A stretch of DNA of 35,983 nucleotides from Candidatus Saccharimonadota bacterium (GTDB lineage: Bacteria > Patescibacteriota > Saccharimonadia > Saccharimonadales > Saccharimonadaceae), in contig JAFWHT010000010.1 of the NCBI GenBank assembly GCA_017511965.1, positions 1 to 35,983 on the forward strand. The letters run 5' to 3'. The notes beneath the pieces were generated by a model, which was not told the origin of the DNA, did not search any database, and saw nothing but the letters and a program-made list of their open reading frames with translations. This document shows, in pieces, positions 2 to 35,966 of the stretch. Positions within the stretch are counted from its first letter, which is position 1; each line of letters starts with the position of its first letter. Position numbers and translations under genes: made by a program.

Positions 2-952
2 AAGACCATTGATACTATGCAAGAAATGACTAGTGAAATCTGTGATGCAACTCCAGTAGGTACAGAAAGACAATTAACAGACATTCGTGATAATAAAGTC
101 TATTGGGTAGCAAAGCTAGCAGACAATCATTGTTGGATGACGCAGAATTTAGATTTAAACCTAGACTCTTCAGTTGCTTTAACTTCCGATACGACAGACC
201 TTAATACCGTCTCTTCATGGACGCCAATTCGTTCTACTATAAATGCAGTTACCAACGAATCTACTTCGGGGAGTATTACTGGCTGGAGTAATGATGCTAA
301 TACTCCATACTCAGTAGACACTGGAAATTATTACTGGAAAAATACTCCTTTTTATAATTCTAGCTTATGTGATAAAACGTTAAATGGGCTGCCTCTTCAG
401 GGCTGCAACTACCTTACTAAAGCTGCCGGTACTGGTCCCGATTGGGCTACCTATTTCGCGACCACGCCATATGCTTCTAACGGCACCCACGGTCACGTCG
501 GTAACTATTACAACTGGTCTGCAGCTGTGGCTAGCAACGATACATCTAGTTATACCGCATCTACTTTTGCCAACCCAGCCAACAACCCACCCAACTCTAT
601 CTGTCCGAAAGGCTGGCGACTCCCGACTATTACCAGTGCCGCTCCAGACTACACTCAAGCCGGCTCAAAAGACGAATTTTCTAGATTAGCTTATCTTTAT
701 GCCAATTATGCAGGTAATACTAGCATCAGTAGCGAAGGCTTAGAAAAAGCGCCACTTTATTACCCGCGCTCGGGCAACGTCAACAGCTCGATACTCCTCC
801 GCGCCGGCGATAGCGGCTTCGGATGGTCTAGTACGGTTGGTATTAGTACTGGCGCGCACTACTTAGGCTTCTTTTCTAGCACGATTTACCCTCAGGGCGT
901 CGCCTCTAACAATCGGACGGCCGGCTTTCCGGTTAGGTGCGTCGCCCGCTAA
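2..952 (+). CDS. FISUMP-domain surface protein, 5' end cut by window
   Basis: The frame is open to the left edge, so the real start lies outside; the first ATG (17) is internal, because the residues before and after it align with the second FISUMP domain of the protein ending at 12260. The visible part is one FISUMP domain (Fibrobacter succinogenes major paralogous domain, C-type-lectin-like fold): an entry motif DNKVYWVAKLADNHCWMTQN, a central block with SICPKGWRLPT, then WSST and a C-terminal VRCVAR. The family is secreted and usually treated as adhesin-like; the ligand is unknown. The middle of the domain is nearly the same as the paralogue, while the last 60 residues (about 766-949) differ strongly and are poor in adenine. 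Coding-strand base use is C/A-rich, unlike the G-rich neighbours. Confidence is high for the domain, low for function. Confidence 0.85.
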   Translation, partial: KTIDTMQEMTSEICDATPVGTERQLTDIRDNKVYWVAKLADNHCWMTQNLDLNLDSSVALTSDTTDLNTVSSWTPIRSTINAVTNESTSGSITGWSNDANTPYSVDTGNYYWKNTPFYNSSLCDKTLNGLPLQGCNYLTKAAGTGPDWATYFATTPYASNGTHGHVGNYYNWSAAVASNDTSSYTASTFANPANNPPNSICPKGWRLPTITSAAPDYTQAGSKDEFSRLAYLYANYAGNTSISSEGLEKAPLYYPRSGNVNSSILLRAGDSGFGWSSTVGISTGAHYLGFFSSTIYPQGVASNNRTAGFPVRCVAR

Positions 953-980
953 CCCTTACTGCTTAGCGTAACATTGTCTG

Positions 981-5560: not shown

Positions 5561-6419
5561 ATGTATAAACATATTGCAGAAAATAAGCGTCGAACCATAT
5601 ATATTATTATTGGTTTTGTGATAATGATTGGGGCGATTGCGGGGGTTTTTGCGTGGTATTTTCAGAATTGGTGGGTTGCAGTTTGGACGATTTTGATTTC
5701 GATTTTATATGCGGTATTTCAGTATTTTATGGCGGGCTCGATTGCGGTGGCGATGACGGGGGCGAAAGAAATTACCAAAAAAGATAATCGTAGACTATAT
5801 AATATAGTGGAGAATTTATCGATTACGACAGGGTTGCCGATGCCGAAAGTTTATATTATAAACGATTCGGCGCCAAATGCTTTTGCAACGGGGCGAGACC
5901 CGAAACATGCGGCGGTTGCGGCGACAACGGGACTTTTAGACATTATGGATGATAAAGAGCTGACGGCAGTAATGGCGCACGAGATGTCGCATGTGAAAAA
6001 TTACGATATTAGAGTGTCGATGATTGTGTTTGGGTTGGTTTGCGTGATTGGGCTGATATCAGATTTGTCATTTAGAATGATGTTTTATGGTTCGAGACGG
6101 CGTGATAATGAGGGTAGTCCGGTAGGATATATTTTGATTTTAGTGGTAGCGATTTTGTCGCCGATTATTGCGGCGGTGGCACGGATGGCGGTGTCGAGAC
6201 AGCGAGAATATCTTGCTGATGCATCGGCAGTACATATTACACGATATCCCGAGGGTATGATTTTGGCACTTAAAAAATTACAAGCACATAGTCAGCCAAT
6301 GAGGTCGCAAAATTTGGCTGCGGAGTCGATGTATATTAACGATCCTTTAAGGAAAGGTTTTTTCAATAATTTATTATCGTCGCATCCACCGATTGAAAAA
6401 AGAATTGAAAGATTAGAAC

Positions 6420-6439: not shown

Positions 6440-9453
<3,014 letters not shown>

Positions 9454-9495: not shown

Positions 9496-12260
9496 ATGAG
9501 AGTTAAATCACAAAATCGCATATATATATATATATATTAGTTGCTGCCCTAATTAGCTCTACTCTTGTTTCTGGACTGATACTCGCGGGGAATTCCGCTT
9601 CTGCTGTTGATAACGTAGTAGACACCGTCTCCATCACCGTCTCCGAATCATGTAATCTCACTACTACTTCAGGTCCTGGACAAACCTATAATGTTAATAT
9701 GCAAAATGGCCAATATAAAAACGATATAGGCAAAACCAGAATCAATGTCTTTTGTAATACTGAAGACAACTTCTCTATCTATGCCATAGGCTATTCTAAT
9801 AATACACTAGGCAACAATACCATGTTAGCATCGGGAGTGGGGAGTATCCCCACCGGCACCGCCACATCGGGCGACACTTCCCAATGGGCCATGAAACTAG
9901 AAGCAGTCACAGGTACTGGTATAGGCACAGGTCCAAACGCAGGCATCAATAGTTACACTCCTACTATTATATCCCCATTCACTAACTTCACTAATGTACC
10001 AGATAACTGGACCAAAGTAGCAGAAGTAGCTAGTGTCACTGGTACTACTAACCAAGCCGCTATTGATGCTTCTTATGCAGTATATATGTCACTAAGTCAA
10101 CCTAGTGGCAGTTATACTGGCAAAGTCAGATACACAGTACTCCACCCAGCTAGTGCAGTGCCTAACCAACCGATAGCCACATCTCCAGGCAAAATAGGCT
10201 ATGTGCCTAATGCCAATGGTCTAGTCATAGACACTATGGCAGATCAAGAATACACAGGGTACACTAGCACAGTAGATAACTTCACTACACCACTCACACC
10301 AAATAGTGAAGCTACACTCTGGGCATCTAACTTCAAACGCCCAGGATACGGCTTTGCAGGCTGGTCTACTACCTATGACTATTCAGACCCTAATGGCTTC
10401 TATGGTCCTAATCAGACTATCACTACACCAACCAACCTAGACCAAAAAGGCTTAACACTCTATGCTATATGGATACCTAGTGCAGGCACTTTGCAAAACT
10501 GGACTGGCTGTAATTCATTAACTACAGGCCAAGTCACAGCTCTAACAGACACTAGAGACAATAATACATACGCAGTAGCCAAACTCGCAGACAATAAATG
10601 CTGGATGATTGAGAACTTAAGGCTGGGTGGTAATACAGCAATTAACCTAACACCAGACAATACTACTATCTACTCTAATTTAACTCTGCCTGCTTCTACT
10701 GATACATTCACTATCACCAGCTATAATAGTATAGAAATGAATGCAAGCAATACGGTAAATCCAGTCGCTAATATGACTGCCAGTACTGATGCCGCTTATA
10801 GTTATGGTAATTATTACTCATTTGCGGCAGCAGTAGGCACTACTGCAGATTACGGTGTAAATAATACAAGTGTTACCACGAGCATTTGCCCTAAAGGATG
10901 GCGATTACCAATAGGCGGTAACAAAAATAATGAAGCTAATAATGAATATTGGGATCTAGTTGTTGCGAAGCTTAATAATAACACCAGCCCAACCAACTAC
11001 CCAAATAATATAGCGCCATATTATAATGGGGATACTGAATCTAATCCCGTAGATAAATCTCTTCGTACCTATCCTAATAATTTTGTTCACTCAGGCTATG
11101 TGCTTGGTTCGTCGCTTAGGTTTCAAAGTGTTGGTGGATATACATGGTCGTCTACGGTGAGTTCCTCGACTAATGACTACATTTTAGGGTTTAACCGTGA
11201 CTACGTTGCTCCGGGTACAGGCAACGGGAATAAGTCTTTTGGTTATAGCGTGCGCTGCGTCAGTGACCCACCAGTCACCATCTCCGACGCCTACCAAAAA
11301 TCTGGTAAATCTACTCACAACGGCTATTATAAGATGCAAGACATGAGTGATAGTATTTGTGGGATGGTGAATGTGTTAGACGAGCCAGGACAAACCCAGT
11401 TAATAGATACTAGAGACAACAAGGTCTACTGGGCAACTAAATTACAAGACGGGAAATGTTGGATGACGCAGAACTTAGACTTAAACTTAAGCACATCCAC
11501 TGCACTCACTAATGCTGATACAGACCTAAATACAGTTGCTTCTTGGACGCCGATGAGAAGTACCATTAATGCCGTAACTAACGCATCTACTTCAGGCAGT
11601 ATTACTGGTTGGACGAATGATTATAATACGCCATATTCGATAGATACGGGTGACTATTATTGGAAAAATGAACCATTCTACGACTCTAGTTTATGCAACA
11701 AAGTAGTAGGTGGAGTAAATTATCAAGGTTGTAACTACGTCACTAAAGCTGATGCTAGTTGGAAGAATTACTTTGCGACTACACCTTACGCTTCTAACGG
11801 CGCTCACGGTCATGTAGGTAACTATTACAACTGGTCTACTGCAGTAGCCAGCAACGATACTTCTGCCTACACTGCAGATACAATGGCTAATATCGCCAAC
11901 AACCCACCAAATTCCATTTGTCCGAAAGGCTGGAGATTGCCAACTGTCACTAGCGCATCACCAGATTACACTCAAGCAAATTCACGAGACGAATTCTCCA
12001 GATTAGCTTACTTATACGATAATTATACAGGTAATACTAGCATTAGCAGTGAAGGCTTAGAAAAAGCTCCACTCTATATGTCTCGCACCGGTCGCGCTTA
12101 CGCGGGACTCGACAACGTTGGATACTATGGGTACTACTGGTCTTCTACGGCGTCTAGCGGTACGTTCGCGCGGGCCCTAGTATCCTATTCTACGATGGTT
12201 TACCCCCAGCACGAGGGCTACCGCTTCAACGGGGCTTCACTGCGTTGCTTAGCTCGGTAA
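9496..12260 (+). CDS. Large secreted two-FISUMP surface protein, out of frame at an (AT)9 tract
   Basis: From the ATG at 9496 the frame reads MRVKSQNRIYIYIY and stops at 9538. The long frame is open from 9507 to 12260 but has no ATG before 9699. Removing one AT unit joins them into about 920 codons, with a good signal peptide: basic start, hydrophobic core through LVAALISSTLVSGLILAG, and the cleavage site NSASA before VDNVV. The exported part has an N-terminal beta-rich domain, an InlB/Listeria-Bacteroides-type repeat (RPGYGFAGW to LTLYAIW, about 10338-10470), FISUMP domain 1 (about 10490-11265) and FISUMP domain 2 (about 11340-12257). Domain 2 is closely similar to the protein at 2-952 except for the last 55-60 residues. 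The role is probably adhesion. It could instead be a pseudogene or contain a sequencing error in the tract. In the present state a secreted product is not expected. Confidence 0.75.
9520..9537 (+). repeat. (AT)9 dinucleotide tract within signal-peptide codons
   Basis: Nine perfect AT units lie 24 bases after the start codon. (AT)8 or (AT)11 would bring the signal-peptide and mature-protein frames together; (AT)9 and (AT)10 would not. Confidence 0.9.
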
Positions 12261-27632: not shown

Positions 27633-28430
27633 ATGGTTAAGAAACTTAGGCGCGGGTTTACTTTGGTTGAAGTGGGGTTGTTTTTGGGAGTGACCGGAAT
27701 GCTTTTTGTGGGTATTGTGATGGGGGTGCAGGGTTCGATGTTTCAGCAAAGGTATAATGATTCGGTACAAGGCTTTGCAGATTTTTTGAGGACGATTTAT
27801 GCGCAAACCTCAAATGTAGAGGGAGATAAAGCAGCCGGAGGCGGTAGAACAGAAAAAGCGATTTACGGGAAGTTGGTTACCTTTGGCGAGAAGCTTAATT
27901 TGGAGGGAAAAACTAATAGCGATAATTCGATTTTTTCTTATACGATAGTTGGTAACGTAAAAAATGAAAATATCGATTCAAATAATGTATTGGAAGCGCT
28001 TAAAGGTGTTGATGCAAATGTGATTGTAAAAAATGGTAGCAGATTTGATTATGCGGGAATTGCGAGCCAATATGCTCCAAGATGGTCGGCGAAAATCCAA
28101 ACAATCAAAGCGCCTCCGTATGTAGATTTTAAGGGCGCGCTTTTAATTGTGCGACATCCGAGTTCGGGTACGGTATTTACGTATGTATTGGATGGAGAGA
28201 CAATAGAAGTAAACGAGAGAAAGAAAAATATGACAGTGCTTTCGAACCCGCTGAGGGAAAAATTGGATAGGTTCATAATTAGCGAAGTTAATTTTTGCGT
28301 GAATCCAGAGCCAGAGAAAGCAAGTAGTGTGAGAAGAAATGTAAGGATTGCCGAAGGAGCAAGAAATGCGTCGGGAGTGGAAGTACCAGCTCAAGATGAT
28401 CGTTCGGCGGGAGGGAATAAATGCAGGTAA
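27633..28430 (+). CDS. Type IV pilin-like protein with class III-type signal
   Basis: This 265-aa protein begins MVKKLRRGFTLVEVG: the basic leader, the G before F at the cleavage point and the glutamate five residues in are the prepilin peptidase signature. A hydrophobic helix (about residues 9-30) follows, then a 230-residue outside domain rich in Asn and Gly. The role is a pilus or pseudopilus subunit. It is the first of three pilin-like genes and has a leaderless-type start. The last residues lie within the next gene (10-bp overlap). The C-terminal part (NVRIAEGARNASGVEVP) is low-complexity. Confidence 0.85.
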   Translation: MVKKLRRGFTLVEVGLFLGVTGMLFVGIVMGVQGSMFQQRYNDSVQGFADFLRTIYAQTSNVEGDKAAGGGRTEKAIYGKLVTFGEKLNLEGKTNSDNSIFSYTIVGNVKNENIDSNNVLEALKGVDANVIVKNGSRFDYAGIASQYAPRWSAKIQTIKAPPYVDFKGALLIVRHPSSGTVFTYVLDGETIEVNERKKNMTVLSNPLREKLDRFIISEVNFCVNPEPEKASSVRRNVRIAEGARNASGVEVPAQDDRSAGGNKCR

Positions 28431-29359
28431 AAAAAGGTTTTACATTGATTGAATTGTCTTTGTCTTTGGCTTTTATTGCGATTTTGTCTTTGACGATTGC
28501 GTTTATTATTAATGAATCAGTGGTTTCTTATAGAAGAGGGGTGACTTTGAAACGGATAAACACTACGGGTATTGGGTTGGTCGATGATATGCGAGCGGCA
28601 ATTCAGAATTCATCAACTAAGTCGCTAAAAGATGACTGTAAGATAACATACGGATTTAGTGGTATGAATAATGGAGTGATTCAGAGATGCGAGAATGATG
28701 GTGCTAAGAATTTTGTGACTTTGACTAAAACTGCCAATGCGACTGGTAAATCAACCCTAAGAAACATCCCAGTTTACGGGGCGTTTTGTACAGGATCTTA
28801 TACATATATTTGGAATTCGGGATATTTCTTTACGGATGCGACAAGTGCATATAGAGTAAGTGGGGCAAACAAGGCAGAACTAAAATTTAATACTAATACT
28901 TCTGTGGGCAACAATGAAGTTTGTAGAGTAACTGGTAGATCTGGTACCGTAAACAGAATGCAGTGTAGTGATTTTAAATTGTTGAAGGTAAAAGATTCCT
29001 CACGAGCAGTTTGTATGGCGGTGGCGGGTGCTAATTATACAGTGAGTAATGTGAATAATGTTTTTGATATTACTGCGACAAGCGAAATTATTACTGAGAC
29101 ACCAATCGATTTGTTGGCTTCTAATGCGGCGGGTGGAGGATTGGCGATTTATAATTTGTTTGTATCGGGTCCGGCAGAAAGTACAGAAAAAGACGCATTG
29201 TTTTATTCGGTATCTTTTATCTTGGGAACTTTGCAAGGTGGCGCAAACATTACGAAGTCAGGGAACTTTTGTTCTACTCCTGACGATTTTAAGTTTGAGA
29301 ATTTTGACTATTGTGCGATTAATAAATTTAATTTTGCCGCGGAGGCAACTGGAGTATAA
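28421..29359 (+). CDS. Type IV pilin-like protein
   Basis: This 312-aa protein begins MQVKKGFTLIELSLSLAF, a textbook prepilin signature with cleavage after KKG and glutamate at +5. The hydrophobic helix ends near residue 35. The outside domain contains about nine cysteines, some in nearby pairs (CKITYGFSGMNNGVIQRC, SGNFCSTPDDF), which suggests disulfides made by a DsbA-type enzyme. The size is large for a major pilin, so a minor or tip subunit is likely. GGGAGG lies five bases before the ATG, within the preceding gene. The third pilin gene starts two bases after its stop. Confidence 0.85.
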   Translation: MQVKKGFTLIELSLSLAFIAILSLTIAFIINESVVSYRRGVTLKRINTTGIGLVDDMRAAIQNSSTKSLKDDCKITYGFSGMNNGVIQRCENDGAKNFVTLTKTANATGKSTLRNIPVYGAFCTGSYTYIWNSGYFFTDATSAYRVSGANKAELKFNTNTSVGNNEVCRVTGRSGTVNRMQCSDFKLLKVKDSSRAVCMAVAGANYTVSNVNNVFDITATSEIITETPIDLLASNAAGGGLAIYNLFVSGPAESTEKDALFYSVSFILGTLQGGANITKSGNFCSTPDDFKFENFDYCAINKFNFAAEATGV

Positions 29360-29361
29360 AT

Positions 29362-30729
29362 ATGCTTAAAGCTAAAACAAAATTTAAAAAAGGTGCAGCG
29401 TCGTTTTATATTGTGGCGTTTTCGACATTGATTTTGGTGGTGATAGCGGCTAGTTTTACGACTGTGATATTGTCTGAAATGGCGATGAGCGAAAACGATG
29501 AATTGTCTCAGTCGGCTTATGATGCGGCGTTGGCAGGGCTTGAAGATGCAAAAGTGGCTTTTGCTAATTATCAGAAATGTAAGCAGGGTGGAGTTTCTAG
29601 TGGGGCGGTATCTTGTGCTCAAATTGATGCGATGGTCAAAAATCCAGACTGTGGAATGGTGGCGAAGATTTTAGGGCGAAATAGTACAGGAGAGGAAGTT
29701 TTGGTTGAAGAGAAATCGAATTATTCGGGAGGTGTGTCGAATAATATGCAACAAGCCTATACGTGTGTTAAAATTGGCGCAACGCTTAGCAACTATACTT
29801 CTACTTTGACAGAAGAAGATACTACAAGAGTAGTAAGAGTTAAATTGGCAAATGGTGTAAGAGCTAGACAAATTCAGAGAGTTAAAATAAGTTGGTATTC
29901 AACGAAAGAGTATAGCTCGGTGGCTGGATCAAACTACAATTTCCCGATTATTCCTAATGAAAATAAATTAGCATTCCCGCCATTTAGGACGACATCTATT
30001 GCATTGCCGCCGATGCTTTCAGTAGGGTTGGTGCAAACAGCAGATGTTTTTGCGTTGAATGATTTTGCAATAGTTAGCGGTAATAGAACGAATAGAGGAA
30101 CGGTATTCTTAGTACCGACAAAAGATTATGCTTATGCGTCAAAGACACAAACCGATGCATATAATAACGATTTAAGCGTGAATTATATCGGAACTTGTAA
30201 TGGGCGAACCGAAAGTGTTTGTAGAGAAAATGGTGGTTTAATATCGGTACCACAAGTCGTAAAAACTAATGACCAGACTGCTAAGAATTTTCCGTTTGCA
30301 GTACTTTGTTCGAATGGTAGAAATGCGGGCGGTGATTTTGCCTGCTCGACATGGTTAGAATTGCCACAGCCTATCGGTGGCGATCGTAGCGATGAAACAT
30401 TTATGTTTGTGGTTACGTTGCCATATGGTCAACCAAGTACAAGCTTTTCTTTAGAATTTTATTGTGCAGATGGAACGGTTTGTAGTGGAGCTGGTGGTGC
30501 AGCTGGGAGTGGAAGTAATAAAGCTGAGATAAGTGGTACTCAAATAGAGATTGATTCAACAGGGCGAGCGAACAACCTATATCGAAGAATTTTAACAAGA
30601 ATGGAGCCGGCAGATACGAGTTTTCCGTTCCCGCTTTATGCAATTGAGCTTTTGAAACCGAACCCGACACCATCAGAGAGTTTGTTGATAAAACCTGGTA
30701 TTGTAACGAGCGAATATAATTTCTATTAA
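29362..30729 (+). CDS. PilX-like minor pilin / pilus-associated protein
   Basis: This 455-aa protein begins MLKAKTKFKKGAASFYIVAF and continues with a hydrophobic helix to about residue 36 and SEMAMSENDELSQSAYDAALAGLEDA. This matches the PilX N-terminal pattern, in which GAA follows the leader and an alanine-rich amphipathic helix follows the span. The canonical glutamate at +5 is missing, as in some atypical minor pilins. The outside domain is large with several cysteines and a Gly/Ser-rich linker (GAGGAAGSGSN). GGAG upstream supports the start. It ends the three-gene pilin unit; the extension ATPase lies at 18938. Confidence 0.78.
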   Translation: MLKAKTKFKKGAASFYIVAFSTLILVVIAASFTTVILSEMAMSENDELSQSAYDAALAGLEDAKVAFANYQKCKQGGVSSGAVSCAQIDAMVKNPDCGMVAKILGRNSTGEEVLVEEKSNYSGGVSNNMQQAYTCVKIGATLSNYTSTLTEEDTTRVVRVKLANGVRARQIQRVKISWYSTKEYSSVAGSNYNFPIIPNENKLAFPPFRTTSIALPPMLSVGLVQTADVFALNDFAIVSGNRTNRGTVFLVPTKDYAYASKTQTDAYNNDLSVNYIGTCNGRTESVCRENGGLISVPQVVKTNDQTAKNFPFAVLCSNGRNAGGDFACSTWLELPQPIGGDRSDETFMFVVTLPYGQPSTSFSLEFYCADGTVCSGAGGAAGSGSNKAEISGTQIEIDSTGRANNLYRRILTRMEPADTSFPFPLYAIELLKPNPTPSESLLIKPGIVTSEYNFY

Positions 30730-35249: not shown

Positions 35250-35966
35250 ATGGAAATCACGGAACGACAGAGAGAAATACTTTGTCAAATTATTGAGGAA
35301 TACGCAGAAACAGCGGCGCCGGTTGGGAGTATGACGATGGCGAAGCTGTTTGGAGTTTCGCCGGCAACGGTTCGAGCAGAGATGGCACGATTGGAAGCAT
35401 TGGGCTTAATTGCGCAACCACACACTTCGGCGGGACGAGTGCCAACTGATGCGGGATACCGATTTTATGTAAATGGACTTTCTGGGGCTGAGGAAGAAAG
35501 TGGAGTCTCGGCGTTTGAGCGAGGAGTACATGCGCTTGAGGTTAGGGTTTCTTCGCAATCGCGAGCAGATTCGGCGATTCGTGGGGCAGTCGATGCGTTG
35601 GTTGAACTGACCGGAAATTTAGGGCTGGCGACGATTGATGGACAACTGTATCTTTCGGGAATGTCACGACTTTTTACACAGCCGGAGTTTTCGGATGCTC
35701 GTAGAGTTCAGGCGGTCGCAAAACTACTTGATAATCTAGAGCCGTGGCTTAGAGAGGCGGCGCCTGGTGAAGCATTAAATATCTTTATTGGGCAGGAAAA
35801 TCCGATTGGGCGAAATTCAGAAGTTTCTTTAATTATTTCGAAGTTTAGGTCACCATTTTCGGACCGGAGTTATATTGGAGTTTTGGGGCCAACTCGCCAA
35901 AATTATTCGAAAGTGATGGCGCTAGTTCGATATGCGGGGAGTATGTTAGAGGATTTAATAATTTAA
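35250..35966 (+). CDS. hrcA: Heat-shock repressor HrcA, short form
   Basis: This 238-aa protein begins with a winged helix-turn-helix (ITERQREILCQIIEEYAETA, GVSPATVRAEMARLEALGLI) and the HrcA signature QPHTSAGRVPTDAGYRFYVN. The regulatory part is present but reduced; the C-terminal block IGVLGPTRQNYSKVMALVRY is the characteristic HrcA end. HrcA proteins usually have about 340 residues; here the middle dimerisation and GAF-like region is about 100 residues shorter. It represses groE and dnaK operons by binding CIRCE and depends on GroEL for activity. A further gene starts after 12 bases, probably part of the same operon (grpE or dnaK would be usual). Confidence 0.93.
   Translation: MEITERQREILCQIIEEYAETAAPVGSMTMAKLFGVSPATVRAEMARLEALGLIAQPHTSAGRVPTDAGYRFYVNGLSGAEEESGVSAFERGVHALEVRVSSQSRADSAIRGAVDALVELTGNLGLATIDGQLYLSGMSRLFTQPEFSDARRVQAVAKLLDNLEPWLREAAPGEALNIFIGQENPIGRNSEVSLIISKFRSPFSDRSYIGVLGPTRQNYSKVMALVRYAGSMLEDLII

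Follow-up and report, generated by a model that had tools for sequence, protein, structure and literature searches.

The end of the first gene in the window analysed here, a stretch of 35,983 nucleotides that makes up contig C27 of a Candidatus Saccharimonadota assembly from base 1, is very probably a remote variable repeat (VR) of a diversity-generating retroelement (DGR), written in trans from a template (TR) located on another contig. This repeat, VR1, occupies positions 765..952 of the forward strand, and is homologous, from position 765 up to the stop codon, to the template TR1 (C7:6061-6249). It appears to have drifted since a rewriting from a template of the TR1 type, which took place once its gene had split off, and the leader of the template RNA would carry a guide for the target.

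The first gene (2..952, forward strand) is an ORF open to the contig edge, its 5' end being missing because the contig start truncates it. Both this gene and a second one belong to the FISUMP/Fib_succ_major domain family (TIGR02145, PF09603). The first gene product scores 52.2 bits with TIGR02145 (E 1.2e-13), above the curated cut-off of 41.65, and 24.9 with Pfam PF09603, below the cut-off of 33.9. The AlphaFold model of this protein, built on a two-row alignment, has a pLDDT of 31, and no relative of the gene was found in viral contigs. The second gene (9699..12260, forward strand) codes for two FISUMP domains, at about residues 299-523 and 540-853, and exceeds the cut-offs of both TIGR02145 and PF09603. 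The two proteins share 68% identity overall, and their VRs match at 103 of 189 aligned bases, with indels. Elsewhere in the window, a run of genes (27633-30729) encoding prepilin-like leader peptides (GFTLVEV, GFTLIEL) probably corresponds to parts of a type IV pilus or pseudopilus.

The initial annotation had drawn attention to the A-poor composition of the first gene end, estimated by hand at one base in six, and base counts give exactly this value, with an A fraction of 0.166 in 760-952 versus 0.301 in the gene body (2-759). Only 0.3% of the 193-nt stretches of the window are equally A-poor on the same strand, and the lowest fraction of any such stretch within the body of the first gene is 0.218. 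A matching switch, also noticed at the outset, occurs in the second gene, where the A fraction drops from 0.324 to 0.169 at 12084-12260, the region that we refer to as VR2 (forward strand), an old member of the TR2 lineage. As had been described for the first gene, the protein ends keep the WSST, YP and RC(V/L)AR motifs, and the intervening residues are changed. VR1 is A-poor because the A's of its template have been replaced.

The assembly (695 kb, 39 contigs, 97% complete) contains two RT genes and two DGR cassettes, both outside the window, on contigs C7 (TR1) and C8 (TR2). Each cassette comprises a TR and an RT gene directed at it, the cognate FISUMP target lying at a distance of about 0.5-1.1 kb from the TR. 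On C7, the FISUMP gene ends at 5730, TR1 lies at 6061-6249 in non-coding DNA, and the RT gene is located on the opposite strand and oriented towards TR1; the arrangement is the same on C8, with TR2 at about 35,720-35,904 and an intact RT. The latter matches PF00078 above the cut-off, its IGNLTSQ and YVDD motifs can be read directly, and it represents the DGR-type RT of the genome harbouring VR1. The cognate VR differs from its template at 15 of 48 A sites and 0 of 140 other sites on C7, and at 11 of 43 A sites and 1 of 128 other sites on C8. Such differences, almost confined to A, are at the sequence level the signature of a DGR. The cDNA made from the TR takes the place of the VR, and it receives random bases wherever the template has an A; the mutated codons are mostly AAC or AAT, so that no stop codon can arise from them.

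Several further features of these loci deserve mention. The C7 RT gene (L018 6279-7200) is frameshifted and lacks the part matching approximately residues 73-131 of the C8 RT, and the C7 VR equals TR1 at all non-A sites despite this broken gene. Either TR1 is now served, if at all, by the C8 RT, or the break in C7 is recent, a strain variant or an assembly error. The ORF found upstream of the RT, in search of an accessory protein (Avd), has no Pfam or NCBIfam match. On C7, a homopolymer of 12 G/C (~7951-7962) sets the frame of the upstream ATG of this ORF and could be a phase-variable switch, and the C8 accessory ORF ends at a 22-nt G/C homopolymer, at the contig end. Homopolymer runs of at least 8 occur near just 5 of 99 RT loci, and are thus not a general trait. 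A PF09603 search returned 27 FISUMP matches in this 0.7-Mb genome, and many contigs (C4, C19, C27, C29, C36 and C38) start inside a FISUMP gene, these repeats breaking the assembly.

VR1 shares 79% identity with TR1, and its differences from the template cluster at template A's, the outcome that the initial annotation had proposed as a check: 21 of 47 A sites are changed versus 18 of 138 other sites (Fisher p 1.4e-5; permutation p 5e-5). The A-site changes fall mostly at codon positions 1 and 2, and half of the non-A changes fall at third positions. The differing fractions at A and non-A sites amount to 0.45 and 0.13 with TR1, compared with 0.61 and 0.41 with TR2. For VR2, TR2 is the better match (21 of 43 A sites and 27 of 125 non-A sites, that is 0.49 and 0.22, p 9e-4), the fit to TR1 being poorer (0.55 and 0.41, with 18 gap positions). 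The earlier proposal of two DGR targets fed by one template is hence retained in its first part, since both gene ends are, as far as their sequences tell, DGR variable repeats, and abandoned in its second, the genome having two templates, of which TR1 fits the first gene and TR2 the second one better. One could invoke ordinary positive selection on ligand-binding loops, or lateral exchange of these, with no retroelement involved, given that the ends of FISUMP paralogues diverge generally and that VR1 carries 18 non-A differences. With templates and RTs present in the same genome and differences clustering at template A's, we regard this explanation as extremely improbable.

With regard to the age of VR1, the body of its gene diverges from the cognate gene by 26.5% and the non-A sites of the VR by 13.2% (p 9e-4), and divergence climbs just 5' of the TR1 boundary in VR1 as well as in the remote copies on C31 and C29. 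The lower divergence at non-A sites than in the body, together with the rise at the TR1 boundary, indicates that VR1 was rewritten after gene duplication. A near-perfect match at non-A sites, as expected with a current template, is seen for the VRs of C7, C8, C4 and C36, but not for VR1; because its non-A sites differ as well, VR1 is not a current product of TR1 and its rewriting is not recent. Moreover, VR1, C31 and C29 have in common five silent bases that are not those of TR1 (positions 3, 48, 90, 105 and 111), which suggest an earlier version of the template or a putative sister template. These shared bases could also be accounted for by a third template, TR3, lost or unassembled, that would be the current template of VR1, C31 and C29, with VR1 still actively diversified; many contigs indeed break at FISUMP genes, and completeness is 97%, not 100%. 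However, a search of the whole assembly with VR1 and VR2 found no further template, and the three VRs differ mutually at many non-A sites, so that no single template fits them all. A third template therefore seems rather unlikely to us, and we retain an old rewriting of the TR1 type followed by drift.

The second gene displays no signal of rewriting since duplication (0.216 for VR2 versus TR2, 0.249 for the body versus the cognate gene, p 0.5). On these comparisons, the two window genes are members of two template lineages, neither of them freshly written. Among the other remote copies of the TR2 family, differences at A sites versus other sites amount to 20 of 43 versus 2 of 128 for C36, 14 of 43 versus 2 of 128 for C4, and 20 of 43 versus 10 of 128 for C28. 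Body divergence is well above that of the VR non-A sites in C4 (0.165 versus 0.016, p 3e-7) and C36 (10.2% versus 1.6%), and the pattern of body and VR divergence in C31 and C29 resembles that of VR1. In C37, C34, C38, C23 and C19, body and VR non-A divergence are not different, and the notion that the VR is just more conserved than the body was rejected on account of these five paralogues. Downstream flanks are common to small groups of remote FISUMP genes from different template lineages: the flank AGAACAAATAAGG..TTGGAGTATAAAATAGATTTGTTATGTTG, located just after the FISUMP stop codon, is common to C29, C34 and C4 (L003, L007 and L012), and other such groups are formed by C28 and C23 (L013, L015) and by C37 and C38 (L008, L006). 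It looks as if genes or gene ends had been exchanged into common sites.

Spreading of VR1 by ordinary gene conversion among FISUMP paralogues, the DGR acting on its two cognate targets only, would agree with the guide targets described below, which are present solely at cognate VRs, and with C4 and C36, in which the low divergence runs about 90 nt past the 5' boundary of TR2, as would be expected if the cognate gene had been the donor in a conversion. In VR1, C31, C29 and C28, on the other hand, divergence rises near the 5' boundary of the TR, which conversion would not respect. Furthermore, where two paralogues are both changed at an A site, they carry the same base in 25 of 65 and 18 of 54 cases; this agreement of about one third is what chance predicts, bears out the early suggestion that the gene ends were altered independently, and means that A-site bases match those of the cognate VRs no more than by chance. 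We thus consider conversion as the source of VR1 possible but unlikely, and keep to rewriting by the DGR in trans.

Both TRs of the genome have a leader ahead of them, and the C7 and C8 versions are related, with 91% identity over 119 nt. The leaders diverge just past this conserved part, where each matches, base for base in reverse complement, the 3' end of its own VR over 13 nt on C7 and 15 nt on C8. In a pattern search of the 695-kb assembly, each of these candidate guides gave two exact hits and no more, one in the leader and one at the end of the cognate VR. The TR end can pair over a shorter length only (10 nt for C7, 6 nt for C8). An IMH-like, VR-specific 3' junction is thus present at the C7 and C8 VRs and absent from VR1: the longest match to either guide at the window VRs is 5-6 nt, leaving no guide target at VR1 or VR2, and none exists at the other remote copies, including C4 and C36. 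A short inverted repeat (CGCTAA..TTAGCG, 947..968, forward strand) spans the stop codon of the first gene; it holds no guide target and folds no better than shuffles (z 0.61). No Rfam family matches the leader, its single-sequence fold is not better than that of shuffles, and at the nhmmer level its sequence is not conserved beyond the two cassettes of this genome, the leader being recognised in relatives by complementarity alone.

About 100 RT loci were fetched for comparison, the relatives found through their RT being named Candidatus Saccharibacteria and originating from ruminant guts. A relaxed cassette finder detected local TR/VR pairs at 23 of 99 RT loci, and in 17 cassettes the longest complement of the VR end upstream of the TR was longer than expected from stretches drawn at random from that locus (combined p 6e-13). 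The guide-bearing leader lies 88-211 nt upstream of the TR, and its guide is complementary to the VR 3' end over 7-15 nt, several guides being short (7-9 nt) and cassette L153 having none. In 14 unrelated cassettes, the mean match reached 9.9 nt with the own leader versus 5.5 nt with cross-paired ones, an excess with a permutation p <=5e-6 (the lowest value that the test can give), both with and without the genome of the window. In Saccharibacteria, 20 of 22 cassettes have a leader that pairs better with the VR end than with the TR end. The guide position is mostly -12..+7 from the end of VR/TR identity, and is not fixed to the stop codon. Other families of the order have the order VR-RT-TR, with the TR after the RT on the same strand (L190, L193, L199-L203), and five of their cassettes carry a complement of 8-9 nt, at VRend-8 or -7, located 117-157 nt upstream of the TR, and none downstream. 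In the genus of the window, TR and RT are mostly convergent, and the position of the guide relative to the TR is about the same in both architectures. A TATAAT-like box is present 62-89 nt ahead of the guide in most cassettes, and in four relatives the segment from box to guide folds as a hairpin with four pairs preserved by two-sided changes; box and hairpin support, but do not prove, a predicted RNA with its own promoter. Among 15 phage DGRs, including BPP-1, there is no group signal (p 0.94 upstream, 0.58 downstream), and BPP-1 taken alone has 9-nt matches on either side that are marginal (p 0.04 and 0.03).

From these patterns of complementarity, we rather favour the idea that the DGRs of Saccharibacteria are RNA-addressed, a guide in the structured TR leader pairing with the VR 3' end and delivering the cDNA. 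Transcription of the TR would begin at a dedicated promoter, the RNA opening with a structured leader; the 7-15 nt guide would pair, where the cognate VR has its 3' end, with the sense strand, and this pairing would address the mutagenised cDNA, complementary to the same strand, to the cognate gene. The guide may tether the cDNA complex to single-stranded DNA, open the duplex, or just tell the VR from the TR. Only the cognate VRs would be addressed today, and the remote copies would be earlier products, retained as a variant archive. VR1 may have lost the guide address or never had it, and would now be a mostly frozen archive copy, whose older rewriting may have come from the TR1 lineage in trans or from gene conversion from a TR1 target. 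C4 and C36 speak against a need for the guide, as they look recently rewritten and have no target; either the guide is not strictly required, or these two copies result from gene conversion. Instead of a retrohoming guide, the leader complementarity might reflect antisense regulation of the target mRNA at its 3' end, as the pairing site lies just past the stop codon, in what is presumably the 3' untranslated region. Its position is nevertheless tied to the end of VR/TR identity, and the preference for VR over TR in nearly all cassettes would also have to be explained, which makes antisense regulation decidedly improbable in our opinion.

The DGR of Bordetella phage BPP-1 (mtd-avd-TR-brt) resembles the system proposed here by its TR/VR pair, A-specific mutagenesis, DGR-type RT, retrohoming into the 3' end of the target gene and a VR-specific 3' junction sequence (IMH versus IMH*); the guide target sits where IMH lies in the phage element. 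The genus of the window differs from BPP-1 by its convergent TR and RT, the apparent TR promoter and leader, and the VR-specific guide. In BPP-1, a 3' spacer serves for self-priming, and IMH and a stem-loop are required for homing; the preference of DGRs for the VR over a near-identical TR, as well as target finding by the cDNA, are incompletely understood (PMC12875486). The DGRs of Patescibacteria (CPR) form clade 2 of Roux et al. 2021, a survey that remote targets escaped (PMC8144416). These clade 2 DGRs are cellular, and those of the window genome probably belong to the same broad lineage. In Thiohalocapsa PB-PSB1, several DGRs coexist in one genome, with remote targets that are apparently trans-diversified and some that are retired (PMC10907252); its RT belongs to clade 5, its targets are others, and no guide has been described. 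In the literature searched, we found no description of FISUMP targets or of a leader guide for CPR DGRs, nor any link between FISUMP and DGRs. No paper on a guide in a DGR context was found either, which is weak evidence as the search was without bioRxiv and included few subscription papers. As a DGR target, the end of the first gene is old and of a familiar, ordinary type; the guide-bearing leader would be new if it is upheld.

If true, the RNA-addressed reading would describe a natural RNA-guided system of targeted hypermutation. With a guide in the TR leader, target choice would become accessible to direct tests, and the selection or retirement of remote targets could be explained. The non-A divergence of each gene provides a clock for its last rewriting. 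For Saccharibacteria, the picture is that of a large FISUMP repertoire written from two templates.
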